Assembly (NCBI RefSeq): GCF_001296025.1
Contig: NZ_LJHV01000007.1
Span: 1 to 59,998 of the forward strand
Origin: Porphyrobacter sp. AAP60
GTDB taxonomy: Bacteria > Pseudomonadota > Alphaproteobacteria > Sphingomonadales > Sphingomonadaceae
Direction of reading: 5' to 3'
DNA length: 59,998 bases
A program made the position numbers and the translations under genes. Shown here one piece after another: positions 11,153-40,211 of this stretch. Positions within the stretch are counted from its first letter, which is position 1; every line of letters begins with the position of its first letter. The notes beneath the pieces are model-generated. The model was not told where the DNA came from, did no database searches, and saw nothing but the letters and a program-made list of their open reading frames with translations.

Positions 11153-11956
11153 TCATGCTTCGAAGCCGAAGTGGCTGCGGTGCCACATCAGCGAGCGGCG
11201 GTGCGAGTCCTCAAGCGGGACTAACGGAGCGTGGTCCGGCGCGAGCAATTCACGTGCCGCCGCGCTCAGATCCGGCTTCAACAATGCCCGCCCGTCATCA
11301 TCGAAGCTCACCAAACCACGATCAAATGCCGCATCCCAGTGAGCTGCCAAAAGTAGCCCGTTGAACACGTCAAGACGCTGCTCGTCGGTGTGACAATGGG
11401 CCCATGGCACGATGTGGCTGGCACGTAGGAGCGGCTCGTCACTGATCCCGGTTACGGGGCAACGACCTGCCCAAAAATCGAGCAACGCTCGGCGGAAATA
11501 CCCTTGTCCCACCCGCTCTTTAACGATGCGCTCGACCTCGGTGTTGCCTAAACCAGCTACCTCAGCCTCGTATTGAGCGAGCGGAAACGTCGGCAGGCTG
11601 CGGGCCAGATGGAATGCACGGGACAGTGCAGAGCGAAGTTCAGCTTGGGTGACAAAGGCGAACGCACCCTTGAAATGTGCGGGCGGATTGACTGCCGCGT
11701 CCGCCAATTCCGCCCCTAGTTTGGCGGCCACACCCGCATGTTCGACCGCGAGAAACCAAGGCGAACCATCGGGATTGATACCACTGGCAAGTGCCACTTC
11801 CCCTGGCACGCCCTCATCGGATTTGAACCAAAGCCACCCGTCGGCGATGCCATTGGCCTTGCGGAAGCCGTGATTATAAGCTGCCTGATCAAGCTCGACC
11901 CGGAAGATGGGATGGGGAATGTTGCTTCGGAAATCGAGCCAAGCGTCTTGCGACAT
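11153..11956 (-). CDS. HNH endonuclease (HNH_2 type)
   Basis: A 267-aa protein from ATG 11956, only six bases after the stop of the SF1 helicase gene, and the last gene of the long minus-strand defence operon. The C-terminal domain (about residues 155-235) has CPVTG, LRASHIVPW, DVFNGLLLAAHWDAAFDRGL and a following beta strand. This is the HNH_2 pattern: metal-binding C/H positions, catalytic histidine in SHI and the N-G-L helix. The N-terminal 110 residues (SNIPHPIFRVELDQAAYNHG and onward) form a separate domain common in restriction-linked HNH proteins, probably for DNA recognition. Expected role: metal-dependent cleavage of invading or modified DNA. Confidence 0.8.
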   Translation of the reverse strand: MSQDAWLDFRSNIPHPIFRVELDQAAYNHGFRKANGIADGWLWFKSDEGVPGEVALASGINPDGSPWFLAVEHAGVAAKLGAELADAAVNPPAHFKGAFAFVTQAELRSALSRAFHLARSLPTFPLAQYEAEVAGLGNTEVERIVKERVGQGYFRRALLDFWAGRCPVTGISDEPLLRASHIVPWAHCHTDEQRLDVFNGLLLAAHWDAAFDRGLVSFDDDGRALLKPDLSAAARELLAPDHAPLVPLEDSHRRSLMWHRSHFGFEA

Positions 11957-11962
11957 CTCAGC

Positions 11963-14644
11963 CTAACTCCACGCGAGGCACATGTCGGGCCGGAGTAGCT
12001 CAAGCACGTTTGGTAGCTGATTGTCCGACGACGTAAGGCCGAGGAAAGTTGCAGCTCTCGTAGCCCCGACGTAGATAAATCGGTCGAACAGGTCTGGCTG
12101 CTCGAGGGCGAGACGATCAACGTTTGTGAAGAAGACAGCTTCGAACTCGAGGCCCTTAATGTGCTTCACATCGAAGATCCGAACCTCTGTTGCCTGGCCC
12201 TTCACTTGGCCGCGCGGACATGGAACCACCGGCAGGTTGAGGTGCTCGACCATACCGCCCAACGCGACCGCGAGCTCGTCCATCTCGTCCTCATTTTCAA
12301 CAAGCACGGCGATGGTCGGCATCGTTCCGGAGCTAAGCCTATTGATCTCGGCAATACGGGACGCCAGCCACCGCGCGCGCTCATCGATCGAGCTCAAGCC
12401 CAACCCAAGCGCAGGCGAGAAGCCCTCATTATCCATTCCAACAGGACCCTGCTCGTCAACTTCGCCACCCTGCAGCTTCGCGAGAGTTACAGCGAATTCG
12501 GCGAGCTTGCGGCTTTGTCGATAGCTGATCGAGATCGGATAAACATCGATGGCCGGCACGGCCCACCGAAGATCTTCTTGGCTTCGGCTGCCCCAGACCG
12601 TGAGACGTTGATTGAAGTCCCCCGATATGAAGACTGCGTCAGTTTCGATGCTCGCGAGGTTGCGCATCACCGCCAACTGGAGCGGCGAAAAGTCCGTCGC
12701 CTCATCGATGAGGATCTGATTTCGGCGGAGTCGCGCTACCGCGTCCAAAAGCACGGGTCTGCGCCCATCGAGCCGTGATGGAAGTAGCCGATCCTTGGAC
12801 ATCGCTCGGGCTTGAGCGACGATCGCGAGCAAAATGGCGTCGACCTCAGCCGGATGGGCGTCGCTACTGCCAATCGCGTTGTCGGAATACCATCGCCCTT
12901 CTGCACGCATCGCTCTGCGGAATTGTCGGTAACGTAGCGACACGCCCGACAGCCACGTTGCCGGTGCTTTCGCTATCCGCCGGGCAGCTCGCTGCACGAG
13001 GAGGCGCCCGCCAATGGCCTTCAGATCAGGTAATTCGAGCGGCCGATCGCGTAGAAACTGGAGAACCCTGCCGCTCCGGGTGCGTGCGCCCGGAGACCGG
13101 CCAGTTGCCTGTCCGATCGCGCGGGCACGCATCGCACTTCGGAATACGTCGACCGTCAGTTTGCGTCCGGAAACAGGGCGTCGAGCATCTTCATCCTCGT
13201 CGTCTTCATCGTCCACGTCATCGTCAAGGTCTTCGGCGACTTCCCCGGCGGCCTCAGACATCAGCTTGGCCACGAAAGCGGAAAGGTCATCAAGAAGGCC
13301 AGCATCAGCTCGTGCATAGGATTGCAAGGGAGCATCAAGCGCGGCTTGCACAGCGCCAGTCATTTCACTCGCCGCCTTTCGCAATTCTTCGGCAACGCCC
13401 GCAATTTCGCCGACGATCTGGAGCGGATTGACTGCGCCGCGGTCAAGCATTCCGATCACTCGGCGGCCGATGGCTGCAATGCGCGCGTCCTCTGCCACAG
13501 CTAGGCGCTCTGCCTCGGCACGCAGTTGCGCTACGAAAAGGTCCCTCTGGAATGCATCGAACGCATCGAACCATTCGATCTGACTCTGCAATGTTCCTGG
13601 CAGAAACACCGGCAAGTCGGGCTTGTAAACAAGGCCACTACGCGTCCCCGTGCTCAGGATGGCCAGATCATTCCGGCAGATCTCGTGACGGTAGACGTCC
13701 CACACTTTGAGCCGCTGATCGTGGACTGGGACACCTTCCTTCCCCAGAGCGTCCATCACATAGAGCCGAAGTAACTCAGTCGGCGTGAACATCGTCCAGC
13801 TGTTCGGGTGTTCAAGCCCCGCCTCATCTGTGCCATCGACGATCTCACGTTCATCATCGGAGAGGTGGTGCATGTCGACAGTCCTGCGCAGGCGCTTGAT
13901 CAGGGTGGTCGTCTTCCCCGTCCCCGGCGGCCCGAGAACTGCGATCTGGCTATCGATGGGTTTACGGAGGATCTCGTCCTGGAACTGGTCCAGCAAGGCT
14001 GCGACACGAAGCTGCATCGCGGTCAGACTGTCCCGCATCAGCCCTTCGACGACGTTCTCCGATGCCTCATCGTCCGCCAGCCAGTCCGCCAAAGCATCAG
14101 CTTCTTCGGCGGAAAAGCCTTCGTCGCGCAGCAGTTCGCGCAGTGACTTAATAGTCCGTGGGCCCATGCCTTCCCGAAATTCGACCGCCGGACAAGAGTC
14201 CCACTCACCAGCGACCTGAGTCGGCTTGAAGGTCATTTTCTCGACGACGTCGAACCATCGATTACCGCTCGGCAGCCGGATATCCGTGCCTTGGCCGACT
14301 GGGAGCGAAGCCAGCCGCCCTTTAGGGCTGAGATAGCTGCATGATACAACACCGGCCGCGCTGACGGTCCCGACCGGAGAGATATAGATCGTCTCCTGCT
14401 TCTCGTCCTCATCGATGACGACGATGCGGGCGATGGTCGGTTCATACCGGAGCCGCTGACAGTCGCTATTCCGCGCCGCATTGCGGAGCTGCATATCCCG
14501 CGCGATCGTCTCTGCTGTCGCCTGATTGACCACGGCAAGGCTTTCTAGGCTCAGCCCTTTGTCGCGCAGAGTCTGACCGGCCGAATTCGATATCTTGGCG
14601 AATGCATCGAGCGCCTCGCGCGCTACAGCCTTCAGCTCTTCCAT
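11963..14644 (-). CDS. UvrD-like SF1A helicase
   Basis: I choose ATG 14644 because GAGGAAGAGG lies six bases upstream; an in-frame ATG at 14662 falls inside the upstream gene. The 893-aa protein has Walker A GPPGTGKTTT (about residue 235), a motif II variant LIDEATDFSPLQ (about residue 641), motif III FISGDFNQRLTVWG, and motifs V-VI as HIKGLEFEAVFF and FIYVGATRA (about residues 826-860). Between Walker A and motif II lie roughly 400 residues, including a highly acidic stretch (EDLDDDVDDEDDEDED, about residue 490) that is unusual for UvrD. The N-terminal 220 residues are unassigned. Likely an ATP-driven 3'-5' translocase acting with the adjacent GIY-YIG and HNH proteins. Confidence 0.8.
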   Translation of the reverse strand: MEELKAVAREALDAFAKISNSAGQTLRDKGLSLESLAVVNQATAETIARDMQLRNAARNSDCQRLRYEPTIARIVVIDEDEKQETIYISPVGTVSAAGVVSCSYLSPKGRLASLPVGQGTDIRLPSGNRWFDVVEKMTFKPTQVAGEWDSCPAVEFREGMGPRTIKSLRELLRDEGFSAEEADALADWLADDEASENVVEGLMRDSLTAMQLRVAALLDQFQDEILRKPIDSQIAVLGPPGTGKTTTLIKRLRRTVDMHHLSDDEREIVDGTDEAGLEHPNSWTMFTPTELLRLYVMDALGKEGVPVHDQRLKVWDVYRHEICRNDLAILSTGTRSGLVYKPDLPVFLPGTLQSQIEWFDAFDAFQRDLFVAQLRAEAERLAVAEDARIAAIGRRVIGMLDRGAVNPLQIVGEIAGVAEELRKAASEMTGAVQAALDAPLQSYARADAGLLDDLSAFVAKLMSEAAGEVAEDLDDDVDDEDDEDEDARRPVSGRKLTVDVFRSAMRARAIGQATGRSPGARTRSGRVLQFLRDRPLELPDLKAIGGRLLVQRAARRIAKAPATWLSGVSLRYRQFRRAMRAEGRWYSDNAIGSSDAHPAEVDAILLAIVAQARAMSKDRLLPSRLDGRRPVLLDAVARLRRNQILIDEATDFSPLQLAVMRNLASIETDAVFISGDFNQRLTVWGSRSQEDLRWAVPAIDVYPISISYRQSRKLAEFAVTLAKLQGGEVDEQGPVGMDNEGFSPALGLGLSSIDERARWLASRIAEINRLSSGTMPTIAVLVENEDEMDELAVALGGMVEHLNLPVVPCPRGQVKGQATEVRIFDVKHIKGLEFEAVFFTNVDRLALEQPDLFDRFIYVGATRAATFLGLTSSDNQLPNVLELLRPDMCLAWS

Positions 14645-14645
14645 G

Positions 14646-15152
14646 TTAAGCCTCTTCCTCATCGCCGCCGGTGATTGTGTCTGTGATCGGCTCCCGCTCG
14701 CTCTTGGCGCCCGTCTCCGACAATGTGTCGATGATCCGGCTCAGACGGTCGAACGAGAACCGATCAAACTCGTCCTGCAACTTCATTGCTCGTCCCTGCA
14801 CGTTGCACATCGGGGGCTCGCCGAACTTTTCCCGGAACGCCAAGATGAGCGCACGTTCAAGCTTCATCCACGACTTGAAACCCTGCCGGGGTCGGCACGT
14901 TACGATGCGCACGTCGGCCGAATGCACGCCGCGCGACCAGAGGACATCCCAAGATCGGAAAGCAGCACTGGCTGCGACGCGGGCAATGCCGTTCTTCGTC
15001 GTCCCGATATAGGCAATCTGAGAATAGCCGTTCGGATACTTGAGCTTCTTATCGGCGCAGATGACGTAGACCAGACGCTCGTGCTCGAGCGCGACCCTGC
15101 GCATCGTCAGCGCCGGCTTGGGCTTGAGCGAAACCTTCAGCCTTTGTGCCAT
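14646..15152 (-). CDS. GIY-YIG-like nuclease domain protein
   Basis: A 168-aa protein from ATG 15152 with GGGGGGAAG upstream. The core reads ERLVYVICAD, then QIAYIGTTKNGIARV, a central arginine-rich helix, LERALILAFREKFGEPPMCN and a final NVQGR. This matches the order of GIY-YIG endonucleases: a VYxI strand, the Y-I-G strand, a catalytic-type arginine, the metal-binding glutamate in LERALI and a terminal asparagine. The first strand is VYV rather than GIY, so it is a divergent member. The stop lies one base before the helicase start, so the two products are co-translated. It may be the nicking partner of that helicase. Confidence 0.6.
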   Translation of the reverse strand: MAQRLKVSLKPKPALTMRRVALEHERLVYVICADKKLKYPNGYSQIAYIGTTKNGIARVAASAAFRSWDVLWSRGVHSADVRIVTCRPRQGFKSWMKLERALILAFREKFGEPPMCNVQGRAMKLQDEFDRFSFDRLSRIIDTLSETGAKSEREPITDTITGGDEEEA

Positions 15153-15174
15153 GTTCTTCCCCCCTTTTTGAAAT

Positions 15175-24900: not shown

Positions 24901-27037
24901 TCCAAAGCCGGTGCGCGAGCACCCTGTTGATCGACTTCTTGGCTTCATCGATTGCGGAGAAACTCACCGGGTCGGGATCGAGCATCCATTCCGTCCGGCG
25001 CTCCCGCAGATCGGGATCGAACCCGAGCGCCTTTCTAAGCGCGTTTCCGAACTCCTCATGAGAGAGGCCATCTTCCCCCGCTGACCGCACCGCCTGCAGC
25101 ATGGCGCCGCGCAGCAATGTTACGAAGATGAAGTCGTTGAAATGGCCTGACTGGAGGGCTGCGTCCTGCCGATTATCGGTAAAGCCGAGCAGTTTGCGGC
25201 GATGTATCTCGACCGGTTGACCTGCCCGTTCCATCCAGTCGAGCGCTGCCGTTGTGATCAGGGTCGTTGCGGAACTTCTGCCTTCTGCCGAAAGTCCTGC
25301 CAGCTTGTTGATATCGCGCGCTTGCGGCGCAGGCTGGCTCTTGCAGTGCGGGCAGAATCGAAACTGACCGGGGAAGAACCAGCATAGCAGGCCTTCCGGG
25401 TCATGCCGGCCATCCCGTCCAAGTCGCATCTGACGGCCATCGTGCTTACCGCGATGGGAATTCTTGAGACGCAACTGCCCCGTTGCGGTGGTCTCCTGCC
25501 AACTGGCGGGATAGTCTTCGACATCGCCTGCAAACTCGAGATCACCGCTCGCATCGGGCACGAGAAAGCCGTGTTCGATATCTTCGCCTGTCGCGTCAGG
25601 GCGAGGAGCGACGTCGATAGGACGAGCGATGACACTGCCCCAGTTGTCGATCGAGACGCTATGGACTTCCTGACCGCAGTCCCGACAGAAATAGACGGGA
25701 TAGAGCCGGGATCTGGTCTCCTCTCGGTCAAACTTCTCGCCAACCAGAGAAACACGGCGGCTACCGGATGGCGCAAGCGTTGTATGCGCAGTCCCTGCAC
25801 CCGACAGAAAGCGATGAATTTTAAAAGCCATGAAGGCCTGATCGCGGTCATTGCGACATTCATTCATGGCGACCAGCCGCTCAGCGATAGCAGCGCGGCA
25901 CTGCGTCGGCTCTAGCTGCGTCACTTGTGCAAGCGCGTCCGCCGCCTCGGTCATCGTGCTCGGGGTCGCACGTTTCAGGACTTCGCCGCCATCAAGCCCG
26001 ATGTTCATCTCGATCCAGCAGGCGAGCGGATCGCAAGCGAATTCTTCGAATGTTGCAGCTTCGGCAGACTCGAGGATGGCGGCACGCAGTGCAGCGTCTG
26101 ACGGCAAGCCCTGAGTGCGCCGAACAAGGCTTTCCGTGATAACATCTTCTGAGAAAACAGGACTTCCGAACAACGTGCTTCCGACCTTGGATACCGCATT
26201 TCGTCCTGCGTCTTCGTCGCCCGATGCCATAGTAGCCGATGTGCCAACGCACAGCATCTTGTTCGACCCCATGCGTTCGCGCACCCGGCGAACAAGCATG
26301 GCAACGTCCGCGCCTTGGCGACCGCGATAGGTGTGGAGCTCGTCAAGAACGAGAAACTCGAGCCCTTTCATGTTTTCGATAACTTGCTGGTCGAGTTCAT
26401 CCTGCCGCGTCATCAGCAGCTCGAGCATCATGAAGTTAGTCAGGATGATATCCGGCGCATTGGCGGCCACTGTCCTGCGTTCGCTGTCCTGCTCCTGACC
26501 GGTGTAGCGCGCGAAGGTCGGCTTTAGGTTCGTGTCCAAGCCGCAGTGTTCGATGAATTTCTCCAACTCCTCACGTTGCGAGTTGGCCAGAGCATTCATC
26601 GGATAGATCACAATCGCGCGTGTCCGCCGCGGCTCACCAGCACGCCGCGCAGCAAGGATCCGGTTGATGATCGGAACGAAGAAGCAAAGCGATTTGCCAG
26701 ACCCGGTGCCGGTCGTGACGATGTAGTTCCGGTTTTGCAGCGCCTTCATCAGCGCCTGCTCTTGATGGAGATGCAAGCTGATAGGTGTGCGAGGAGACCC
26801 GAGCGAAAAGACAGCTTCAAGATCCGGGTCGACAACCCCTTGCTGGGCTAAGTCAGAAACTGAGCGTCCGCGCTTGAACTCGGGGTTGAGCCCGATGAGC
26901 GGTTCGGGCCAGAACTTGCCACCTTCATAAACAGCATCAATCTGCTCTCGAAGGTCTGAGGCACGGATCGAGGTAAACGAACGCGCGAACTTCTCGTATC
27001 TGGCGATCAGATCAGCATCGAGCTCGAAAACGTTCAT
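21923..27037 (-). CDS. Giant SF2 helicase with C-terminal DUF1998 (DrmA/DrmB-like fusion)
   Basis: A 1704-aa protein from ATG 27037 with AAGGGG six bases upstream. The N-terminal helicase has LHLHQEQAL, TTGTGSGKSLCFF (about residue 107), VLDELHTYRGRQG (motif II as DELH, about residue 232), VGTSATM, then YCSPTMELGVDIS and QRAGRAGRSGQ (V-VI, about residues 1000-1040). A CRDCG...CPHC pair lies near 449-566 and a second CCHACG...CIVCH zinc site near 1314. The C-terminus holds the DUF1998/MZB cysteine cluster CVAGCYRCVLSYYNQ (about residue 1572). Domain order is that of YprA/MrfA-type helicases. DISARM divides comparable functions between DrmA (helicase) and DrmB (DUF1998). Probable role: DNA loading and unwinding in the defence complex. 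Confidence 0.85.
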   Translation of the reverse strand: MNVFELDADLIARYEKFARSFTSIRASDLREQIDAVYEGGKFWPEPLIGLNPEFKRGRSVSDLAQQGVVDPDLEAVFSLGSPRTPISLHLHQEQALMKALQNRNYIVTTGTGSGKSLCFFVPIINRILAARRAGEPRRTRAIVIYPMNALANSQREELEKFIEHCGLDTNLKPTFARYTGQEQDSERRTVAANAPDIILTNFMMLELLMTRQDELDQQVIENMKGLEFLVLDELHTYRGRQGADVAMLVRRVRERMGSNKMLCVGTSATMASGDEDAGRNAVSKVGSTLFGSPVFSEDVITESLVRRTQGLPSDAALRAAILESAEAATFEEFACDPLACWIEMNIGLDGGEVLKRATPSTMTEAADALAQVTQLEPTQCRAAIAERLVAMNECRNDRDQAFMAFKIHRFLSGAGTAHTTLAPSGSRRVSLVGEKFDREETRSRLYPVYFCRDCGQEVHSVSIDNWGSVIARPIDVAPRPDATGEDIEHGFLVPDASGDLEFAGDVEDYPASWQETTATGQLRLKNSHRGKHDGRQMRLGRDGRHDPEGLLCWFFPGQFRFCPHCKSQPAPQARDINKLAGLSAEGRSSATTLITTAALDWMERAGQPVEIHRRKLLGFTDNRQDAALQSGHFNDFIFVTLLRGAMLQAVRSAGEDGLSHEEFGNALRKALGFDPDLRERRTEWMLDPDPVSFSAIDEAKKSINRVLAHRLWNDLRRGWRFTNPNLDQLDLIRIVYPGIRMLAEDQATCSGAHRERMSETEERGFSILSQVPADKREKMFRLLFDHMRQGLAIAVDALDPNELEAVSIKSRQFLKDPWAISQEEQNHDLSAQTALVVGTQGSKYDRIVRVSARGGLARTIAAEVGDLPLVDREPLIEAMLLAAARHQMAREFAAGQLLGWRLAPGALRIIPGEGQPKKGQDNKFFAELYSDVAVRLAAPGGLPLAFEAREHTAQVESLLREMRECRFRFGDSDKQRMVEIASDAKVIAEKRDFLPLLYCSPTMELGVDISQLNVVYLRNAPPTPANYAQRAGRAGRSGQAALVVTYCAAQSPHDQYYFERRTDLVAGIVKAPAIDLVNPDLLASHVNAEWLAAAKEGLGKSIPENLDMNDEALPICSRLISAFASATSDIEARERAVRIVGSALPAEGSPMTGSPEDFVTARWGIAGHAIDQAFKRWRTLYRSANEERREASAIADRPGLSAQERKDARSRYVAADKQVELLAKGVSSASSDFYAYRYLATEGFLPGYNFPRLPLYAFVDSDRGSAVLQRPRFLAIAEFGPNSLVYHEGKAFSCNRAKLPAGTRGNDNKLITSTMRCCHACGAAHSSETIERCIVCHEPLTEEGRLSKLYRIENVDAAPRSRITANDEDRQRRGFDLRTIFEWDPVRQESLLLKTSDGPLAALRYGPQTKLSRVNLGLRRRAHKEHTGFDIDTISGRWLKNEAQGEDEGYVDNSAKRQSIVPVVEDTKNALLLKFDHLIELDNNQMATLQHALVRAIEAEHVLEAGELLGEPLPTKDNRKALLFYEASEGGAGVLKRLMDGPEHWRRLAAVALDLMHYRLEAGRLVAKDDACVAGCYRCVLSYYNQPDHEMIDRRDEGVLDVLVGLAACERDWPASGPAGADTQSDPWLAAFASWGLPAPSSETIAGIEYSMVWPGHMVMAVTQSPSDALRDRCAELGRELIVLPDEPGTTPPSDLAIALGVSA

Positions 27038-27106
27038 GGCAACCCCTTGAGTATTATGCCCATCATAGCCGCCAATGGGCGGATTGCAGCGGTTAATCTA
27101 GGAAAG

Positions 27107-28084
27107 CTAAGCGAAACTCTGAGACGCTGCAGACAGTCTCTCCCGCATCACCGCCCGAAGTTCGTCCGGGGACTCGATCCGCACCGCACCACCCCACGTG
27201 AACAGATGTTCTGCGATCTCGCGCAGGCCTCCGGAGCAAAATCGCACCACCAGTTCATCACCATCCTGTTCGATCACCTGCTGAGGGTGAAAACGCCACC
27301 GACGCGCACGTTCGGCGCTTTCCGGAGCAACTCTCAACACGATGTCGTGGCCTTGTTCGCGCCAGATGCCGAAACTGGCGCTCATCCATTGGTCCAAATC
27401 CCAATCCTCGCTCGCCGCACCGGGCTGATTGCTGACCCGAGCTTCGGTAATGCGATCGAGACGATAGGGGGCAGGTTCCAGATCGCGGCCGGGGATCTTG
27501 CCGATCAGATAGGTCGCAGGCCCGTGGATCAGGCCCAACGGAATGACCCGCCGCCACTTCGGCTCTGTCGCACCGTCGGCAAGGTAATCAAATTCAAGGC
27601 ACATCCCGGCCATCATCGCGCCCTGAACCTGCGCCACGGTCTCCGGCGCATGTTCGATCATCGGGCCAGCGGGGACATGGTGGCGCTGAAGCCGCACTAG
27701 CGGGTCAAGGTCTGGAGCCATACGGCTCTTGACCTCGCGCCTCAGGCCCGCCTGCACTTTGCCAACCAGGGTTTCGAGCAGAAGGGCCTGCGCCGATCCC
27801 GCCTTCCGAGCGGTATCGGCGAGCGACTGCAGAGCGGCGATCTCGGCGACATTGGGCTGGGTGAAAGGCGACGGCAGCGCGCCCGGAATGCGGAAGCGCT
27901 TGTGGCGGTCATCGACGCTTTCCTCGAGATCGAAGTGCACGAGGATGAGATCGCGCAGCCGCTCGGCGGTGCGGCGGTTGGCGCCGATCAGCTCGGCCAT
28001 CTCGTCGAGGGTCAGACCTTCGGCACTCTCTCCCAGCGCCTTGACCAGGGTGAGCAGCCGGTCGAGTTTTGCATTGCGTGCCAT
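27107..28084 (-). CDS. WYL-domain transcriptional regulator
   Basis: A 325-aa protein from ATG 28084. Residues 1-70 are a winged helix (KLDRLLTLVKALGESAEG, LTLDEMAELIGANRRTAER). The WYL domain follows (LEFDYLADG, VIPLGLIHGPATYLIGKI, about residues 180-225), and a WCX-type C-terminal domain (HDIVLRVAPESAERARRW, LREIAEHLFTWGG) completes it. Regulators of this make-up sit in many defence islands (BREX BrxR, CBASS CapW) and act as repressors relieved by ligands such as nucleic-acid fragments. Here the gene is inside the operon, between mcrC and the SF2 helicase gene, so it probably autoregulates the whole unit. A candidate shared upstream motif is described among the findings. Confidence 0.88.
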   Translation of the reverse strand: MARNAKLDRLLTLVKALGESAEGLTLDEMAELIGANRRTAERLRDLILVHFDLEESVDDRHKRFRIPGALPSPFTQPNVAEIAALQSLADTARKAGSAQALLLETLVGKVQAGLRREVKSRMAPDLDPLVRLQRHHVPAGPMIEHAPETVAQVQGAMMAGMCLEFDYLADGATEPKWRRVIPLGLIHGPATYLIGKIPGRDLEPAPYRLDRITEARVSNQPGAASEDWDLDQWMSASFGIWREQGHDIVLRVAPESAERARRWRFHPQQVIEQDGDELVVRFCSGGLREIAEHLFTWGGAVRIESPDELRAVMRERLSAASQSFA

Positions 28085-28093
28085 GGCGTCTCG

Positions 28094-29425
28094 CTATTCT
28101 GTTGCCAGAAGTAATGGGACCGCATCGGCGGCCGAGGGCTCCATCACCAGTGTCCTGAGAGCCTCGATCAAAACCTGCTCGTCCAGCGAGACATCCGCCG
28201 TTGCGATCCTGAGACGCTCGCTCCCGCCCGCCATGCCGAACTGCGCGCGCTCAGCGCACCCCTGCCCCGGTCGTCCGGGATAGAGCAACATCAGCTCGGC
28301 CGTTCGATAAAGCCGCGCATAGGCCATCAGCTGATAGACGTCGGCCTGGCTTACCCCGTGCTTGCGATCGAGCGGGTCGGGGCTGAGCTTCTTCCACTTA
28401 GTGTCAATGATCGCCACGACCTGGCCACGCTGGCAAAGCATGATGTCGGGCTTTGTGCGGAAAACATTGCCGCTTTCGAGATGCTCGCCGGTGAAGGCGC
28501 CGAGGCAGGCACGGTGGCCGCCTTGGTCGAGCACTTCGATGTCGCTGCCCGCCAGCGCCCGGCGCAGCAGCACCGCGACATACTTCTCGAACAGGTCGTT
28601 CATCGGGAACAGCAGCGTCAGGCCCTCGGGGGCCTTTGCCTCATGGTGGGTCGCTTGCCAATCGCGCTGGAGCAGCAGCCGGGCGAGCCGGAACAGCGCC
28701 TCCCAGCGCCGGTTGGTGCGATCGATTCGCACTGCCTGCCATGGCAGCCGCGTGATCGGCATCAGCGGGATGTCAGCCAGGGCGTGTCGCAGCTCGTCAA
28801 GCTTGCGCCGGGTGCCGAGGGAGCGGGTATGGCGGGCGAGGAACACGGTGGCCGCCGCCATGATCCGCATCAATGGCGTATCAGCCTCAAGCTGATCGAA
28901 GCGGCAGGCAAGCCGGTCGGGCCGCACTGCATTGCGGGTGAATTGGCGGGTCACATCAAGCCGGCCGCGCAAAGCCGGTAGATCTTCTTCGCACTGGATA
29001 TAGGCGCGCGGCAGGCCGCGCCGCACCTCGGCAAGCAGGCGGGTGGCAAAGGCGTCGATCAGGATTTCCAGCAGAGTGCTCTTCTGCCGGGCAATTGCAG
29101 CCTCGGCCCCGCTATCGAGGTCGAGCCCGAGCGCCACATCCAGCATCCGCACGAGGCGGCTGCGCACGGTCTTGTCGCTCTCCTCTGCCCCGGCATCAGA
29201 ATCGACCTTGGGCAAGATCTCCAGGCTGCATCCCTTGGCCGAAACCATCCCGACCATCTGGCGCGCGATGATCCGGTCGCGCCCGAGAACGAGGATATTG
29301 GTCGCATCATCATGCGCCAGCGGGTGCTCGCAGGCAGCCGCGTGAAGCGCGTGAGCGTGGGTTTGGGTCAGCCCATGATCGCCAAACCGGACATGGCCCC
29401 ACTCGTGGATCGTCAGATGCGTCAC
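28094..29425 (-). CDS. mcrC: McrC family nuclease subunit
   Basis: A 443-aa protein starting with GTG at 29425, its start overlapping the upstream stop (GTGA). The first 100 residues are the McrC head domain. The family signature PMNDLFEKYVAVLL is at about residue 272. The PD-(D/E)XK centre is KPDIML followed by VAIIDTKWKKL (about residues 320-340), giving the catalytic D, D and K. McrC supplies the cleaving subunit that associates with the McrB AAA+ ring and cuts DNA after translocation. The pair is separated here by an extra nuclease-like gene, which is not the usual mcrB-mcrC order. Confidence 0.92.
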   Translation of the reverse strand: MTHLTIHEWGHVRFGDHGLTQTHAHALHAAACEHPLAHDDATNILVLGRDRIIARQMVGMVSAKGCSLEILPKVDSDAGAEESDKTVRSRLVRMLDVALGLDLDSGAEAAIARQKSTLLEILIDAFATRLLAEVRRGLPRAYIQCEEDLPALRGRLDVTRQFTRNAVRPDRLACRFDQLEADTPLMRIMAAATVFLARHTRSLGTRRKLDELRHALADIPLMPITRLPWQAVRIDRTNRRWEALFRLARLLLQRDWQATHHEAKAPEGLTLLFPMNDLFEKYVAVLLRRALAGSDIEVLDQGGHRACLGAFTGEHLESGNVFRTKPDIMLCQRGQVVAIIDTKWKKLSPDPLDRKHGVSQADVYQLMAYARLYRTAELMLLYPGRPGQGCAERAQFGMAGGSERLRIATADVSLDEQVLIEALRTLVMEPSAADAVPLLLATE

Positions 29426-30165
29426 GGGGCAAATGCCTCGCGCACCGCGCGGGCATGATCGGCTGCCTCACCGGTAAAGCAGGCCAACCATCCGCCCCAC
29501 GAACACGTGGCAAAGCGCACTCGGTTGCCCGCGACGATGCCGTGAAAATCTTCGATCTCGCGGCGGTGGGCAAGGAAGGCCTCTAGCGAGTTGCGGCAGG
29601 CATCCTGCGGCTCGGCGTAGAGGTAAACCAGCGCGGGGGACAGGCCTGACCGGGTGCTTTCGGTCGCAAGGCCCAGCGCATGCTTTACCAGCTGCGCGGC
29701 ATCGAGATGCTTGTAGCGCCGTGGTTCGGCCCGCAGCAGGTCCCGCATAGCGCACCAACCCTGCATGCCCTCACCCCAGACATCGCGGTCATAAGCGTCG
29801 GACAACTCTGCAACCTTGCTGTCGCGATAGGGCTCGTAGCGCTTGGATTCGACGCCGATGACTTGAGTGTCGGTCCACACCACCGCATCGAGCCACGGAT
29901 GACGCCCGCCGCTCCACGGGAAGCGCAGCTCGCGTTCGATTGCGACCGCAGTCACCGGGCCACCAAGGTCGGCAACCGACGGAAACAGCGGGCAATCGGC
30001 GGGCCGGTCAAGGAACCACCCGAAGCCATTTGCCGCCAGTGCCGCGCTGCTCTGCGGACTGGCAAACTTACCGCTGGCAATCTCATTGCCCGCCGCCCGC
30101 CCAAAGATCTCGCGCACCTTGTCCTCGGGCACGCCCGGAAGGAAGACCGGCTGCGCCCCGCTCAA
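29422..30165 (-). CDS. PD-(D/E)XK nuclease-like protein between mcrB and mcrC
   Basis: I accept the TTG start at 30165 because GGAGGA lies six bases upstream and the codon overlaps the mcrB stop by four bases (TTGA). The 247-aa product has HPWLDAVVWTDTQVIGVESKRYEPY (conserved D near residue 90, then E-S-K near residue 102). This is the D-(E/D)xK active site of PD-(D/E)XK enzymes, and the protein resembles PGN_0703-type putative restriction endonucleases. The rest is helical. Its stop overlaps the mcrC start by four bases, so all three are translationally coupled. It may be a second nuclease of the McrBC machine, or a guard with separate specificity. Confidence 0.6.
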   Translation of the reverse strand: MSGAQPVFLPGVPEDKVREIFGRAAGNEIASGKFASPQSSAALAANGFGWFLDRPADCPLFPSVADLGGPVTAVAIERELRFPWSGGRHPWLDAVVWTDTQVIGVESKRYEPYRDSKVAELSDAYDRDVWGEGMQGWCAMRDLLRAEPRRYKHLDAAQLVKHALGLATESTRSGLSPALVYLYAEPQDACRNSLEAFLAHRREIEDFHGIVAGNRVRFATCSWGGWLACFTGEAADHARAVREAFAP

Positions 30166-33100
30166 GCTTCATCCTCCAAATCGGAGGGCGTTGCAGCGCG
30201 CGCGGACACGAGCCGGGTATAGGCCCCCTCATCGAAATGCGACCGAACCCGCCAGCTTTTCAGCGGCTCCCCGCCCTCGCCCATCGGATCCTCGATGATC
30301 TCGCAGGTCAGGAAATTGCCGCCCTTGTCCTTCTCGCCCAACACAGCTGCGAGCCGGTTCCAGTCGTCGAAGAAGTATTCCTGGAGCAGCGGGATGACCT
30401 TGTCGCGCATCACCGCATCGACGTCAGCCTTGGTGTCGCAGCCGATGAAGAACGCATGGCCGATACGGTGATCCCGGTCGACGAGGTATTCTATCCGGCG
30501 ATTCATGGTGTTGAGGACGGCACCCAGCGGCAAGCCGGTCGAGTTCTCCGCAGCGATGAAGGCAGGGATCGAAGTGTCAGGCGCCATCTCCTCGAAACGG
30601 AACCGCCGGCGCAGCGCGGTGTCGAGCAGCGCAATCGACCGATCAGCGGTGTTCATGGTGCCGATCATGTGGAGGTTGGCCGGCACCCCGAACTCGCGCT
30701 TGGAATAGGGCAACCGCACCTTGAGGGGATTGCGCATGCCGAGCCTTTTGTCGGGTTCGATCAGCGTGATCAGCTCACCGAACACCTTGGAGACATTGGC
30801 ACGGTTGATTTCATCGATAATCAGGACGAATTGCTGTGTTTCTCCACTGTCAGCAAATCCATTATCCGATGCTGCAACGGGCTGGATCAGACGGGCCAAT
30901 GCATCGTGGTTCACCCTTCTAGCAGGGATCGAATAGAAGGATCGCATCATGAAATCCCCCTCGATGATCGTATCGAGCGGAAGAGGTTCATCCAGGACAA
31001 CCAACCACCGGACGCGGCGCCTGTGGTAATAGGTCGGCTCCCCTTCCGGCTCATAGTAATAGTCGCCGACCACCTCACCGACAGCGCGGAATGTCCGGTT
31101 GCTGGCAGGAACGATCACAATATCGCCGATCTTCAGCTCGTTGCGGAAAGGGTGAAGCTGACGGTAATTGCTGGGACGGTCATCCTCGCGCGGAGCACTC
31201 TCCCACTCATTGCGGATCGCATCGAGTGTCGCAAAACGCTCATCCGACCAGTCAATGTCCCTGCCATAGCCAAGGGAAATGTGCCCGTCTTCGATGGCCC
31301 GATCATAGACGCTATCCTGCTGGCCCACCCTGCCAAGGCTCATCTTCCAGAATTTGCGTCCAGTGAAATCGAAACCGGGTTGATGGGCTTTAGGGCGCTT
31401 GCGAGCCTCCTCCGCGACTGCACACAGTTCACGAAAGATTCCGGGAACCGGTTCGAGACGAAACCCGCCCACAGACCCTTCTTGCTCATCATTAAGGGCG
31501 GTCTCTGGCCGCAGCCCTTCAACGAATTCCTCGTAGGAAAAGCTCTGGTGGAACGTCACGAAGCGAATGCGACCTGCCTTGGATAGCTCCTCATAACGCC
31601 GCATGAGCTCGTCGCGATCGTCAGGCGCTGTTTCGCCGCACAGCCGCACAGCCTCCTGCGCTGTGCGATAGGTCTTGCCCGTTCCCGGAGGGCCATAAAG
31701 GATGAGGTTCGTGGGTTGCATGGTCGGCATCTCGTCGCTTGCTCCGGCACCGAACAGCCGGTCGCGCCAGAAGGGATCATTCAGAAACATGGCGTGGTCT
31801 TGCGGCTCGCCGTCGAGCAGGAAGCGCCGCAGTTGATCGGCATAAACGCTGTCGCCGGGCTCGCGCAGCCGCCAGACCGCGTCGTTGTTGGTGTAGAAGA
31901 ACCAGGTGCGCGGCTCCGGCCACGTCTGCCAGTCGACACCGACCCGGAGGCCATCCTCACTCACCTCAGTGATAGTGCCCTCGGCGCGGAAACGCAGCGC
32001 GGTGACGATCCCCGTCCCGACATCGAAGGGCAGATCGCGGGCGCGCGGCACGAAGTCCTTCAAGAAGATGCGATCGCCAGCATGCATTTCGCGAACGCGG
32101 CGGTTGTTGGCGCTTCCGGTGTCGGTAAGCAGGCTCCACTCTCCGCGCTCGACAAAGCGCGGCAAGCCGTCTTCTTGTCCCCAAAGCGAAGTGACCATCC
32201 ATATTGGCACCGGATCAAGTTCGCGGGGCGCTTCCAGCTTGTCCTTACAGGTTACCCAAAGAAAGCCTTGGACGTCCCACATGTCACGCGGGTTCCAGTT
32301 CCAATCTTCATCCATGATCCGCAAAATTTCGCGGGCCATGGCATTCACCCGTTCGAGTTCACCGCGCGCAAGGGGCGCATTTGCGAAAGCAGGACTGCCA
32401 AGCAGCAAGCGCGCGGCATAGTCGGTTGGTGTTGATCGGATCGGCAATACCCCATTCGGCTCAACAAGGGCCCGAAGCATTGTGGGGAACATCCTGCTTT
32501 CGGCGTAAGGATTGCTCGGCAAATCCCCGCGCATGACCGGCCAGACGGTCGCCAGATAGGCGACGACGCCTTCAACAGAATCTTCAGCGCGCGCCAGTCG
32601 TCCGGTAGCCGCTTCAACTAAGCCTGGATGCGACGTGCGCGCATTATCGATGACCTTTTGCGCCCGCCAATCGATGAGATTGCATTCTACCCCTGCTCGC
32701 CCAGCCAAGAGGTCGATGAGTGCAGCGCCAAGAGCTTCGTCGCTTTGACCTTCCACAGCGAGGGTCAAGGCAGCCTTCAGCACAACTACATGCTTATAGT
32801 CCCGCTCCAACGACGCGAAGCTTGGACTTTCATCGAAAGTCTTGAAATCATGATGAATTGAAAGGAATTTATCCCTCAGGCGCTCCAAAGCGGCGCGGTC
32901 GATCTGGATATCGTTCCCGCCCTGCAGCCCGAAACGATAGCGAATAGTCGAGCTGGGCTGATCGCTGCCAATCGGGCTGCGTCGATCAATCAGGGTAACC
33001 TTAGCTCTTTCCGCAAACATCCGCCCTTCCAGCGCTCCGCAGACCGCAGGCATAGCGTTCTCAAGGCCCATACGGGTGTGAACATCACCAGACACGACTT

Positions 33101-33464
33101 CGACCACACGCTCGCGGCTCTGCCGAGCTGGTTCTATGAAGTTGGTGATTACAAAATCACGAATTCGGTCAGCTTGGGTTTGAGACACATCACCGCGCCG
33201 ATCCACGATGCGAAGGCCAAGCCGCGCTAGATGCTCCCGAGCTTCGGTGCCGTTGCATGTTTCGCTGTCACGAGCTTCCCCGTCGGGCATGTAGGCAAAT
33301 GCTGCGCCGAAGATTGCTTTCGATGGATACTTTTTGCCATCAATTTCAACTTCATAAGTGATGTTTCGGTCAGCAAATTGGTATTTCTTCATGAATGCGC
33401 CGCGCCCGAGCCGATCGAACTCAGCTGCAGCTCGTTCTACGGCCTGAATATCAGGTCTTCTCAC
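30162..33464 (-). CDS. mcrB: McrB-type AAA+ NTPase with extra EVE-like domains
   Basis: The GTG at 33464 overlaps the upstream stop (GTGA) and lies eight bases behind GAGGAG, so it is preferred over the GTG at 33470. In about 1100 aa: an N-terminal domain like the ScoMcrA head (YEVEIDGKKYPSKAIFGAAF, about residue 38); an EVE/PUA-like domain (WMVTSLWGQ to GDRIFLKDFVPRAR, about 420-560); Walker A LILYGPPGTGKTYRT (about 586); an inserted second EVE-like domain (KFWKMSLG, GHISLGYG, LKIGDIVIVPASN, about 706-821); Walker B FVLIIDEINRAN (about 878); and the McrB hallmark MNTADRS (about 935). McrB proteins bind modified DNA through N-terminal modules and power McrC cleavage by GTP or ATP hydrolysis. 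Two candidate base-reading domains in one chain are unusual. Confidence 0.85.
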   Translation of the reverse strand: MRRPDIQAVERAAAEFDRLGRGAFMKKYQFADRNITYEVEIDGKKYPSKAIFGAAFAYMPDGEARDSETCNGTEAREHLARLGLRIVDRRGDVSQTQADRIRDFVITNFIEPARQSRERVVEVVSGDVHTRMGLENAMPAVCGALEGRMFAERAKVTLIDRRSPIGSDQPSSTIRYRFGLQGGNDIQIDRAALERLRDKFLSIHHDFKTFDESPSFASLERDYKHVVVLKAALTLAVEGQSDEALGAALIDLLAGRAGVECNLIDWRAQKVIDNARTSHPGLVEAATGRLARAEDSVEGVVAYLATVWPVMRGDLPSNPYAESRMFPTMLRALVEPNGVLPIRSTPTDYAARLLLGSPAFANAPLARGELERVNAMAREILRIMDEDWNWNPRDMWDVQGFLWVTCKDKLEAPRELDPVPIWMVTSLWGQEDGLPRFVERGEWSLLTDTGSANNRRVREMHAGDRIFLKDFVPRARDLPFDVGTGIVTALRFRAEGTITEVSEDGLRVGVDWQTWPEPRTWFFYTNNDAVWRLREPGDSVYADQLRRFLLDGEPQDHAMFLNDPFWRDRLFGAGASDEMPTMQPTNLILYGPPGTGKTYRTAQEAVRLCGETAPDDRDELMRRYEELSKAGRIRFVTFHQSFSYEEFVEGLRPETALNDEQEGSVGGFRLEPVPGIFRELCAVAEEARKRPKAHQPGFDFTGRKFWKMSLGRVGQQDSVYDRAIEDGHISLGYGRDIDWSDERFATLDAIRNEWESAPREDDRPSNYRQLHPFRNELKIGDIVIVPASNRTFRAVGEVVGDYYYEPEGEPTYYHRRRVRWLVVLDEPLPLDTIIEGDFMMRSFYSIPARRVNHDALARLIQPVAASDNGFADSGETQQFVLIIDEINRANVSKVFGELITLIEPDKRLGMRNPLKVRLPYSKREFGVPANLHMIGTMNTADRSIALLDTALRRRFRFEEMAPDTSIPAFIAAENSTGLPLGAVLNTMNRRIEYLVDRDHRIGHAFFIGCDTKADVDAVMRDKVIPLLQEYFFDDWNRLAAVLGEKDKGGNFLTCEIIEDPMGEGGEPLKSWRVRSHFDEGAYTRLVSARAATPSDLEDEA

Positions 33465-36400
33465 TTGCACCCCTCCTCGGCTACCCAGGCCAGCGTATTC
33501 ACAAGTCTCAGATGTTCAATGCTTTTTGCATCGAGCTCCAGCAGTTTCGGATTGGCCAGCACGAGCGCAAGCGTGCGCGCGCGGCTGATGGCGACGTTGA
33601 TGCGGTTCTTGGAGTAGAAGAACTCAACGTTGCGCGGCAGGTCATCGGGGCTGGAAGTCGCAAGCGAGACGATCACCACCTCGGCTTCCTGACCCTGGAA
33701 CTTGTCGACCGTGCCCACCCTCGCGGCTTGCGGCAGCGCAGCCCTAAGCGCGTTGACCTGCACGTTATAGGGCGCGACGATCAGAATGTTGTTCCAGCCG
33801 ATGGTCCCTTGAGAACCGTCGCGCGCGGTAAACGGCGTGCCGATCAGTGCTTCGGCCAGCTGCTTGACCCGCGCCACCTCGGCATCGCTGCGCTGGCCGC
33901 ATCCCGTATGATCCATGGCTACGAAGCTGATGCCGCTCTCCGCCAGCGCCGGATCATGACCACGCGAAAGGTGCAACCGTTGGCGTGCGCAGTCGGGATG
34001 CGCCTTGAGCCGCCCATCGTAGACTGCCTCGGAAATAAACCCGCAAATCGAAGGATGCATTCGCCAGCTGGTGTCGAGCAGGATTCCCCGATCGGGCGCC
34101 ACAGTTGCTTCGCCCTGCAACAAGTAATCGAGCGCTGATAAGCCGCTCTCGCCCGGATGCGCGCCTTGGATCGGCTGGGATAGCTGCATCTGGTCGCCAA
34201 CGAGCACGACATTCTTGGCCGCCGAACCCATCGCCAGCAGATGGCCAAGAGACACTTGCCCCGCTTCGTCGATAAACAGGTAATCGAAATGCTGATCGAA
34301 ATCGCTGTCCGCAAACAGCCACGCCGTGCCCCCAACCAGATCCGGAAGATAATCGTGGACGTCCTGCACGGCTTCAACGTCGGTGATGATGCGCCCGTTA
34401 AGCCGCTGATCCTCCTTGCCTCGCGTGGACTTTTTGACACCGCAGAAGTCGAGCCCAGTTTCCTCGGCAACGTCCTCAATCTTGGCTAGCAGGTTGTTGA
34501 TCGCCTTATGGCTGTTGCTCGACACACCAACGCGCTTGCCTGCCGCCAGTAGCGCGCAGATCACGTGGGCCGAAGTGTAGGTCTTGCCGGTGCCGGGCGG
34601 TCCCTGAATAAACAAGGCTGTCTCGTCCATAGCAAGGCAGCGCAAGGTTGCGGCCTCGACAAGGCTTTCGCCTTCACGAACCAGCGGTCCGCCCTCCCAT
34701 CCGACAAGGCGCGGCGGTTCGCGTTCAATCAGATCGAGGAGCGCGCGGTAGGGCGGGCCGTCTGATAGACCGCAGGACCATGTTTCCAGACCGTCGGGAT
34801 CGGTATCGCCGTGCAGCCACTGCGCCTCGTTCATCCCCGCCCAAGCCATTGCCACGCGGCGGACTGCAGAGACGAGGATCTCGCTGGGGACGGTCGGCTC
34901 GGGAATAAGGGATCCGTCCTCGGGCCAAATACCCTTCGCACCATTGCCCCGCTTGACCTCGACCTGCCCGGCTTCCCCATCGAGCGCGACGATCGTTCCA
35001 ACTTTCGACAGCGTCGGCGCATGCAATACGACATCGCCTTCGCGCAGCTTCGTCTCTTGGGGCGGAAAGCGATAGCGGGCGATGGTGCTACGTTTCTCCG
35101 GGCGCCGCCATACCCCGTCGCCGTCGGGGTCAGGCTCAATCGCACCGATGCATTCGGTGTCCTCAACCAGCTCGTCAACCTCGCGCTCGCAACGATCGAA
35201 CATTTCCCAGAGGGCAGGCTTGTCCGCCCTGCGGTGAAATTCAGTCAGGTGTCCGACCAGAGCACGGCCCGCGGGTGTTGTTGGCAAAGTGCCTGCATCA
35301 ATTGCTTCGATCAGCCGCCTTGAGCGTTGCTCGGCCTGCTCGCGCTGTTCAGACTTCTCCTCGCTCACGGCAACCGGCGGACCGATGTCTCGCCAGGGTA
35401 GGTGATCCATGCGGAGCGACACCAGCCAGTCGCGCAGGCCTTCGGTGTTCTCGCAATCGACCTTGTTGTATTCGAGGATGTCATCAAGGATCCGTTGTTC
35501 GCCGGTCTGCTGCCAGCTCTTGTATTCGACCACCGACTGGTCAGCCTTGGTCACAGCCCCGTCGCGCTTTTCGGCAAAGAAAACTTCCATCGTCTTGAGC
35601 GAGAGGTTGGGTTCCGAGGTGCGCACGGCCTGACGCAAAACGGCGTAGAGATCGACAAAGCGGCGCTCGCGCAGCAGGCGATCAAGCACAGCCTCGCGGC
35701 TGGCATGCAGCGTAGAAAGACGGCGCAGCGCGGTAATCTCATAAGGCGCGTAGTGATAAATGTGGGCGCCCGGATTACGGACGAGATGATCAGCCATCCA
35801 GTCAAGCGTGTCTTCGAAGGCGCGACGCTCCTCGGCCGCATCGTGACCCCAGCGGAAGCGAAACTCGGATCGTCCGCCATCGCGGTAATGCACGCCCCAA
35901 AGATAATCACGACCGCCGTCCTCCAACGGATCACCCTCGAGATCGAAGAACAGATCCGCCGGATCCGGCGGTGGCAGCAGGGCGAGGCCTCGCCCTGTTT
36001 CCACCGGCAGCGCCACGACCACAGGCTCGCCGCCGGCCCGCCGCGCCAGTTGCAGCTGGGCCTGGGCGCGCAGCTTGTCCAGCGTCGCGGGCGCCATCCG
36101 CGGCACTTTGATACGATCGGGCAATTGTGCAAGCGCCGCCAACGTCTCGATCCCGGCGTCCTTGAGCTTCTGAGCCTGCGGCCTCCCGAGCCCGGCGACG
36201 AGCGAAAGATGCTCCTCGGTTTCCCACACCGCGCCGCAATGCTCGCGCCACGGGCACAACGGACAAGCGGCGCATGGCTCGGGGCTCGTGGCGCCGGGAT
36301 CGCCTGACACGAAGTCCGTGAACCGTTCAATTGCGGCCGAAAGCACCTTGGCGAAATCGACGAACCGGTAACTTTCGCGCCGTCCGTCACCGAGTTCGAC

Positions 36401-36904
36401 GTGAACCCGCCGCGGGCTGCGACCCTGAATGGTCGCGATCATTCGCGCATAAAGCCCGAGCTGGACGAGATGTGAAGCCTTGGCCGAGCGGGCGAGCTTG
36501 GTGTCGACCGGTTCATAGGACCATGCACCCATTGCAGAGGGCTCCTCCACCCGCACCAGAAAATCAGCAAAGCCGCTCCACGGGGACTGCAGGAACGCCG
36601 CCTGAAAAATTGCGGGCACGCCCCTCTGGATGGCTTCGGTCGTTAGCCGGGCACGTTCATCTAAAGACCGATTAGTGGGAATTTCGACGAGCTCGCCCTC
36701 GCCCGCAAGCTGCTTGCGGAACCGTTCCTCGTGCTCGAGTCCGGCTTGCTGAACCAGCTTTGCCATCGCATCGTCTTGGGCCAGTGCGGGCGCACCGTCC
36801 GGATCGGCCAGACGCACCAGATCGAGCGCGGTGGCATGGTTGCAACCGAGAAACCGCACAAGGTCGGTGGGCGAAAAAAGTGTTTGTCCTTCGTGGAGGC
36901 GCAT
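33461..36904 (-). CDS. RecB-like nuclease / RNase H-like / SF1B helicase fusion (TM0106 type)
   Basis: An 1147-aa protein from ATG 36904 with AAGGGATGATCC before it. Residues 1-225 are a TM0106-type RecB-like nuclease ending in a cysteine set (EPCAACPLCPW and HC, about 208-222) like the Fe-S cluster of Cas4/AddB nucleases. A helix-hairpin-helix piece (GLGRPQAQKLKDAGI) and an RNase H-like domain follow (LFFDLEGDPLEDG, about 316). A DNA2/UPF1-like helicase makes up the end: GPPGTGKTYTS (about 765), YLFIDEAGQVS (about 873), GTVDKFQGQEAEVVIVS and NVAISRA (about 1070-1105). It is the first gene of the compact operon and would resect or unwind DNA. Similar fusions occur in several defence islands. 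Confidence 0.82.
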   Translation of the reverse strand: MRLHEGQTLFSPTDLVRFLGCNHATALDLVRLADPDGAPALAQDDAMAKLVQQAGLEHEERFRKQLAGEGELVEIPTNRSLDERARLTTEAIQRGVPAIFQAAFLQSPWSGFADFLVRVEEPSAMGAWSYEPVDTKLARSAKASHLVQLGLYARMIATIQGRSPRRVHVELGDGRRESYRFVDFAKVLSAAIERFTDFVSGDPGATSPEPCAACPLCPWREHCGAVWETEEHLSLVAGLGRPQAQKLKDAGIETLAALAQLPDRIKVPRMAPATLDKLRAQAQLQLARRAGGEPVVVALPVETGRGLALLPPPDPADLFFDLEGDPLEDGGRDYLWGVHYRDGGRSEFRFRWGHDAAEERRAFEDTLDWMADHLVRNPGAHIYHYAPYEITALRRLSTLHASREAVLDRLLRERRFVDLYAVLRQAVRTSEPNLSLKTMEVFFAEKRDGAVTKADQSVVEYKSWQQTGEQRILDDILEYNKVDCENTEGLRDWLVSLRMDHLPWRDIGPPVAVSEEKSEQREQAEQRSRRLIEAIDAGTLPTTPAGRALVGHLTEFHRRADKPALWEMFDRCEREVDELVEDTECIGAIEPDPDGDGVWRRPEKRSTIARYRFPPQETKLREGDVVLHAPTLSKVGTIVALDGEAGQVEVKRGNGAKGIWPEDGSLIPEPTVPSEILVSAVRRVAMAWAGMNEAQWLHGDTDPDGLETWSCGLSDGPPYRALLDLIEREPPRLVGWEGGPLVREGESLVEAATLRCLAMDETALFIQGPPGTGKTYTSAHVICALLAAGKRVGVSSNSHKAINNLLAKIEDVAEETGLDFCGVKKSTRGKEDQRLNGRIITDVEAVQDVHDYLPDLVGGTAWLFADSDFDQHFDYLFIDEAGQVSLGHLLAMGSAAKNVVLVGDQMQLSQPIQGAHPGESGLSALDYLLQGEATVAPDRGILLDTSWRMHPSICGFISEAVYDGRLKAHPDCARQRLHLSRGHDPALAESGISFVAMDHTGCGQRSDAEVARVKQLAEALIGTPFTARDGSQGTIGWNNILIVAPYNVQVNALRAALPQAARVGTVDKFQGQEAEVVIVSLATSSPDDLPRNVEFFYSKNRINVAISRARTLALVLANPKLLELDAKSIEHLRLVNTLAWVAEEGCK

Positions 36905-37040
36905 GGATCATCCCTTCGATCGCAGGCTTAGGGCAGCGATACGACAGAATTGGTCATCGAAATGATAATGAACGAGAATTGCAAGGATCTACCGACTGGC
37001 GCTACCCTTAAGGCGGCCCGCTGACGCTGCAAGCCGGGGG
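36905..37040 (-). promoter_or_regulatory. Probable promoter region of the long defence operon
   Basis: This 136-base gap is the only sizeable break before the twelve-gene block starting at 36904. It contains the 9-mer TGTCGTATC (minus strand, 36938-36946), also found just upstream of the DUF2779 gene (39184-39192). A TTGCAA/TATCAT-like stretch is present, but the spacing is poor. I infer a promoter here without fixing its boxes. Confidence 0.35.
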
Positions 37041-39163: not shown

Positions 39164-39203
39164 GCTGGGTTTCCTACAGCCATGATACGACAATAACGGT
39201 CAC

Positions 39204-39905: not shown

Positions 39906-40211
39906 GTTGGTCCCGGCCCTGAGTTATACGGCAATGCCGAACATCATGGCAGGCACAAAAAGAAAATCGACTTAATTTTTCACTTCGATACAATTAGATG
40001 AGCACGAAGGCATCGTATCAGAAGGACAGCTAAATCGGTCCGTGAAGCGGAAAAGCCGGTGCCTGAGCAGCGTAAGCCGCCACAAACCAATTGGACGCAA
40101 TTGGACGCAATCGCTCTCCATACCAACCCAACCGATGCGTAAGACATGACCAGATTTGTCGCAGCTAACTACTAGAGGCCATTTGCCCTGACGCACAAAG
40201 GAGCACTGCCA
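39906..40211. promoter_or_regulatory. Divergent promoter region with a tandem 10-mer
   Basis: This 306-base region separates the minus-strand HEPN gene from the plus-strand YbjN-like gene. It holds an AT-rich core (39961-39997), an exact tandem repeat of TTGGACGCAA at 40091-40110, and ATCGTATCA at 40012-40020, similar to the 9-mer seen upstream of other genes of the block. Promoters in both directions are expected; I cannot assign the boxes. Confidence 0.3.

Follow-up and report, generated by a model that had tools for sequence, protein, structure and literature searches.

A McrBC-WYL cassette ahead of a variant ARMADA type I core, with a terminal HNH gene, in Porphyrobacter sp. AAP60

We analysed a window of 59,998 nucleotides from Porphyrobacter sp. 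AAP60 (contig NZ_LJHV01000007.1), and in particular a block of defence-type genes at 11153-36904 that is predicted to destroy viral DNA. The block does join two known defence modules. We consider it probable (about 0.7) that these are two separable modules lying on one strand: a (TM0106)-McrB-REase-McrC-WYL cassette, followed by an ARMADA type I core whose helicase has lost its Vsr motif and which likely cuts by means of a terminal HNH protein.

The block forms an unbroken minus-strand run, as the initial annotation had described, although it holds 11 genes where twelve had been counted (Table 1). In transcription order they encode a TM0106 nuclease-helicase, McrB, an REase-ARP-like protein, McrC, a WYL protein, a YprA-like helicase, an SNF2 helicase, a PglX-like methylase, a GIY-YIG-like protein, a UvrD-like helicase and an HNH_2 protein. 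Adjacent genes overlap by 1-17 bases or are spaced by 6-22 bases, and the sole larger spacer, of 69 bases, separates WYL from YprA. The short overlaps listed previously were found again, TTGA at McrB/REase, GTGA at REase/McrC, ATGA at YprA/SNF2 and TGATG at SNF2/PglX; however, TM0106/McrB and GIY-YIG/UvrD overlap by 10 and 17 bases, more than the 1-4 bases given for overlaps, and the other gaps measure 9, 22 and 6 bases. Profile searches supported the identities proposed for SNF2, the N6-methylase, McrB, McrC and WYL, and the general picture of a defence-type block that unites a DISARM-like cassette, McrBC, WYL and additional nucleases and helicases was borne out. A sigma-70-type scan of 26900-40700 gave five sites in total, near chance (3.6 in shuffles, standard deviation 2.1), and none within the WYL-YprA gap; alphaproteobacterial promoters may escape such a scan, which found no separate promoter inside the block and could not exclude one either.

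Table 1. Features of the defence block, in transcription order.
Feature	Position	Strand	Remarks
TM0106-family RecB-like nuclease fused to SF1 (IGHMBP2-like) helicase, 1147 residues	33461..36904	-	TIGR03491 289 bits, above cut-off; AAA_12, RNase_H_2
McrB GTPase, 1102 residues	30162..33470	-	AAA+ motor with EVE-like insert
REase-ARP-like protein between McrB and McrC, 247 residues	29422..30165	-	PF22558, E 7.5e-7 (weak)
McrC, 443 residues	28094..29425	-	PF10117 247 bits; D...DTK nuclease motif present
WYL/WCX regulator, closes McrBC cassette	27107..28084	-	PF13280, PF25583
Junction of the two modules, 69 bases	27038..27106	-	no sigma-70-like site
YprA-like helicase (ArmC-like), 1704 residues	21923..27037	-	C-terminal Vsr-like domain without catalytic D...DG..H
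BrxHII/DrmD/DpdE-like SNF2 helicase (ArmA-like), 933 residues	19125..21926	-	PADLOC DpdE 590 bits, DrmD 257, BrxHI/II 200
PglX/DrmMI-like N6-adenine methylase (ArmB-like), 1316 residues	15175..19125	-	Eco57I, N6_Mtase; DrmMI 235 bits; DPACGSG, NPPW present
GIY-YIG-like small protein, variable PglX-HNH slot, 168 residues	14646..15152	-	Y, YIGTT, R, E, N invariant in 13 aligned sequences
UvrD/GajB-like helicase, variable slot, 899 residues	11963..14662	-	UvrD_C_2, UvrD-helicase; weak GajB matches, best 26 bits
HNH_2 endonuclease, last gene of operon, proposed replacement nuclease, 267 residues	11153..11956	-	PF13391, E 1.2e-13

Modularity of the McrBC cassette and the ARMADA core

The first module shows the marks of McrBC: a McrB GTPase with Walker A/B and an MNxxD-type signature adjoins a McrC with its nuclease motif. 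The EVE-like domain of McrB lies within the AAA+ motor at residues ~703-861, and a second segment (~422-534) has an EVE-like order of strands and helices. The REase-ARP-like protein carries a D...ExK-like pattern starting at residue 93. In the adjoining AAA+ motor and McrC nuclease the module resembles type IV McrBC systems with EVE-type readers (PMC11090510, PMC7641849); it differs from those systems, as the accessible parts of these papers present them, by the REase-like gene between McrB and McrC, the helicase-nuclease ahead and the WYL gene after. The host also has a C5-cytosine methylase (388-residue frame, G000:C12:749458-750453), and the McrBC of the window has to tolerate the methylation that it sets.

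We scanned helicase-profile loci from the best 80 of 476 genome matches, 21 plasmid regions (from overlapping sets of 71 and 67 plasmid records) and 16 loci from genomes drawn by kinship; loci are cited below by L or G numbers. Upstream McrC was counted in the 68 ARMADA rows that have an eroded helicase tail and at least 6 kb of upstream sequence, the upstream room being set by hand for 12 kinship-drawn rows (14-15 kb retrieved each). Ten of the 68 loci carry a same-strand McrC gene upstream of YprA (the window, L005, L016, L018, L021, L028, L093, G078, G226 and L062, from the Myxococcota), and the other 58 are without McrC there; over the 88 rows counted, this distribution takes a minimum of four changes on the tree. 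A WYL gene stands between McrC and YprA in nine of the ten, L062 being the exception. This run is uninterrupted in five loci (the window, L005, L018, G078 and G226), and L016, L021, L028 and L093 have extra genes within it. In L028 (6559-9908) additional open frames occur among McrC, WYL and YprA, so that the module junction accepts insertions in some genomes.

The cassette also occurs by itself. Among 397 genomes of the order, McrC was found in 33, YprA in 12, both in five (the window's genome included) and the two adjacent in three; 28 of the 33 McrC-bearing genomes are without this YprA. Ten of these 28 were taken for locus reading. McrB precedes McrC in all ten, WYL stands directly behind McrC in three (G050, G454 and G234), and none has a YprA profile match within 18-19 kb. 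The WYL gene of G050 ends beside a tRNA-Gln gene; beyond that of G454 come SNF2, GcrA-like, DNA methylase and ResIII genes, and a ResIII gene lies 1.4 kb beyond that of G234. In a McrC tree with 12 'linked' rows (in one, L052, McrBC stands downstream and on the opposite strand), ARMADA-linked copies cluster, with six label changes versus a shuffled mean of about 10 and 2 of 500 shuffles as low, and unlinked copies, G050 and G454 for instance, are interspersed among them. Since the cassette is found without ARMADA, and unlinked McrC copies lie amid linked ones in the tree, (TM0106)-McrB-(REase)-McrC-WYL is a portable cassette, with the TM0106 gene as its exchangeable head, and it precedes ARMADA at several sites, the window among them. 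McrBC can also follow the core, directly after PglX in Nocardioides L095 and after UvrD in G637. In L006 (Erythrobacter cryptus)/G006 stop codons interrupt the ARMADA helicase, and McrC and WYL still match well.

These data bear on two other ways of understanding the block. The initial annotation took it for one machine, which would make McrBC, WYL and the ARMADA genes a single obligate complex; the tight overlapping run, the repeated joining of McrBC to ARMADA at either end and the clustering of linked McrC copies would all agree with this. Yet the two parts occur apart in 28/33 genomes and 58/68 loci, G454 and G234 have McrBC-WYL ahead of restriction genes of other kinds, and unlinked McrC copies are scattered among the linked ones, and we thus find an obligate complex improbable. 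That annotation had itself named independent occurrence, with a meeting here by chance, as one finding that would speak against it. The halves do occur apart, but chance alone does not explain their meeting. Chance neighbours in a defence island, sharing nothing except location, would be in line with the Phage_integrase-domain gene at 7771-10662 and other defence-type genes flanking the block, with accessory genes that differ among near relatives, and with the inserts in the McrC-WYL-YprA stretch of four loci. Such an origin is nevertheless unlikely given the ten same-strand loci, the WYL gene in nine of them, the five uninterrupted runs and the changes on the tree; moreover, both genes co-occur in five of the 397 genomes versus about one expected (12 x 33 / 397). 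The McrBC/ARMADA junction is modular, neither unique nor a product of chance.

Assignment of the core

The core (YprA-like helicase, BrxHII/DrmD-like SNF2 helicase and PglX-like methylase) is ARMADA type I as described by Bell et al. in a 2025 preprint (PMC12458937). The OB-CON-DUF1998 region is fused to YprA in a single gene, as type I requires, and the BrxHII-like helicase and then the PglX-like methylase follow, in the type I order. Those of the helicase-profile genome loci that are long enough to show the order share it; it is reversed in five cyanobacterial plasmids, as reported for many cyanobacterial type I systems (PMC12458937). The helicase, previously called a DUF1998 helicase, is actually of the YprA/MrfA type (Pfam MZB; MrfA is the best solved match of its C-terminal half). 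DruE models score 278 bits on it versus 56 bits for DrmA, its CxxC motifs at 451, 562 and 1318/1333 agree by position with the zinc-binding inserts of ARMADA type I (two or more CxxC in the domain that follows RecA1, and one insert in the OB region), and the nearest helicase among the matches listed is that of Porphyrobacter sp. IPPAS B-1204, at 97% identity. All 85 aligned PglX sequences contain an NPP[YFW]-type motif.

The C-terminal tail departs from this type. The preprint calls the Vsr-like nuclease domain of types I and II predicted active, whereas in the window helicase the fold is modelled and the catalytic motif is gone; the window is therefore filed as a variant ARMADA type I lineage and not as a canonical member. 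The terminal HNH gene and the upstream McrBC-WYL cassette are further additions, McrBC being downstream in L095 and G637. An association of McrBC with ARMADA is already published (PMC12458937), and the accessible part of PMC11090510 also links the two.

ARMADA type II of E. coli combines these three families with a fourth gene, for a GajB-like UvrD helicase, and deletion of any one of its four genes abolished protection, according to the accessible portion of PMC12458937; its order is BrxHII-PglX-YprA-GajB, and that portion describes no McrBC, HNH or WYL for it. The SNF2 and PglX-like genes are related to DrmD and DrmMI, but the class 1 DISARM-like core proposed before gives way to ARMADA type I on gene order and on the YprA/DruE-type helicase with its fused DUF1998. 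The families listed for 14 window proteins (for PADLOC, the best 25 matches) include neither DrmB nor the PLD domain of the nuclease DrmC, the DrmA model gives 19.6 of the 999 bits needed on the window helicase, and the DrmD equivalog NF038317 gives 299 of 610. Druantia was also rejected: DruE models match only in pieces, DruK reaches just 22 bits, on the TM0106 protein, and DruH and DruA-D are absent from the families listed for the 14 proteins (best 25 each). Type-1 BREX-related (BR/Hma) systems share an SNF2 helicase and an N6-methylase (the HmaA model scores 167 bits on the window SNF2), but as far as the accessible text of PMC12839542 goes, they centre on a DUF499 ATPase and are without YprA.

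Loss of the Vsr motif and the terminal HNH gene

The helicase tree comprises relatives found with the window helicase or the D. radiodurans helicase. L006 (broken helicase), short or edge rows and second copies of genomes already included were left out; genome matches identical to loci already taken (G041, G112, G453, G384 and G267) were not retrieved a second time, nor were partial or broken ones (G006, G135, G390, G555, G597 and G744). The Vsr catalytic motif is present in 18 of 114 rows, and the HNH gene in none of the 17 of these that can be scored, some of which carry McrBC at the downstream end instead. The eroded clade comprises 94 rows, or 93 without G072, a copy of L031 that was excluded from the final count; an HNH_2 gene comes after the methylase in 65 of its 67 scorable rows. 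In the 16 kinship-drawn loci, HNH occurs in 10/10 eroded (G072 included) and 0/5 motif-bearing loci, one more being unscorable. The predicted structure of the helicase tail keeps the H-EEE-H-E order and matches the homing endonuclease I-Bth0305I. In an alignment of 26 tails, the catalytic loop is absent from all tails of the eroded clade, and L121, L096 and G725 show intermediate forms. As for the HNH proteins, H181 and N199 are present in 58/58 aligned rows, and the PglX and HNH genes overlap directly in nine loci (L007-L009, L027, L036, L037, L046, L057 and L079).

Retention across so many lineages, together with the nine overlaps, makes a function of the HNH gene likely. We read the pattern as a probable nuclease swap, a separate HNH protein having replaced the fused Vsr domain, and the HNH product likely does the cutting in place of the helicase tail. 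Such a move of the cutting function would be unreported as far as the literature was searched: 'HNH' appears in the main text of PMC12458937 only in a reference title, and among the papers listed by our searches we saw none describing HNH in ARMADA.

The history of the two characters limits the strength of this view. Motif loss and HNH gain fall on the same single branch (support 99 in FastTree, with long-branch and composition warnings), and HNH presence changes three times in all on the tree. The link is strong but not replicated, a single evolutionary transition, and on one shared branch cause is inseparable from coincidence. The HNH protein might instead be an independent auxiliary or backup nuclease, the Vsr tail having eroded for another reason. 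For BREX and BR systems, an auxiliary or compensatory part is indeed reported for HNH and other neighbouring nucleases, which are said to compensate when the fused nuclease is absent (PMC12839542, in its accessible part), and the single transition would suit this as well. However, the near-universal retention within the clade, the invariant H and N and the frequent overlap with PglX differ from the behaviour of other post-PglX genes (SMC-like, GmrSD_N, GIY-YIG, UvrD), which are variably present, and we hold an auxiliary role to be rather doubtful.

For the two-module arrangement with its HNH replacement, we infer every activity. The PglX-like enzyme would mark host DNA by N6-methyladenine, and the SNF2 and YprA helicases would load onto and unwind unmarked or replicating phage DNA, to which the HNH protein would be brought as the nuclease in the former role of the Vsr domain. 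McrB may read modified bases through its EVE-like domains and McrC may cut, so that phages evading the core by base modification would meet McrBC as a second layer; the WYL protein is likely a regulator of its own cassette or of both modules. More tentatively, ARMADA type I could be a helicase-methylase chassis whose nuclease end can be exchanged. That end would be a fused Vsr domain in some systems, a McrBC pair at the terminus in others and, in a lineage that spans at least six phyla, a separate HNH protein that took over once the Vsr active site had been deleted. The window would then be the HNH form with McrBC re-acquired at its other end, and two nucleases would serve one chassis.

A testable rule would be that a helicase which has lost its own Vsr motif is accompanied by a retained, separately encoded HNH protein. 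It would predict the phage-DNA-cutting gene of a large ARMADA lineage, which would wrongly be taken for effector-less in a search aimed at the canonical fused nuclease. The two-module view also offers a reason for the frequent company of McrBC and ARMADA.

Exchangeable genes and neighbours of the block

The GIY-YIG, UvrD and TM0106 genes are exchangeable add-ons. L005, the closest relative, whose helicase is 97% identical, is without all three. The GIY-YIG-like protein has no Pfam match, and one relative is annotated as a GIY-YIG nuclease at source. In 21 loci PglX is followed by a protein of ~650 residues that has no Pfam match and of which the L124 member is annotated SMC; elsewhere GmrSD_N (L029), an M78 peptidase domain (L018), AAA_21/AAA_15 ATPases (L066) or HNH directly follow. 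Upstream of YprA, an SbcCD-like exonuclease/ATPase pair lies beside TM0106 in L007, L010 and L092, in place of the window's McrBC.

At the 3' end the block adjoins the Phage_integrase-domain gene (963 residues, plus strand), a possible mobile-element boundary. Upstream lie a protein of ~212 residues with no Pfam match (37041-37679, minus strand), which recurs beside McrBC or YprA in L005, L021 and G234, and a DUF2779/Cas4-like protein (37682-39193, minus strand), likewise upstream in L005, L006 and G078. Further on, a protein with a PvuRts1I-like N-terminal part and an SRA domain (40791-41765, plus strand) is probably another modification-dependent restriction enzyme, and its gene is followed by one for an ADP-ribosylglycohydrolase (41812-42801, plus strand).
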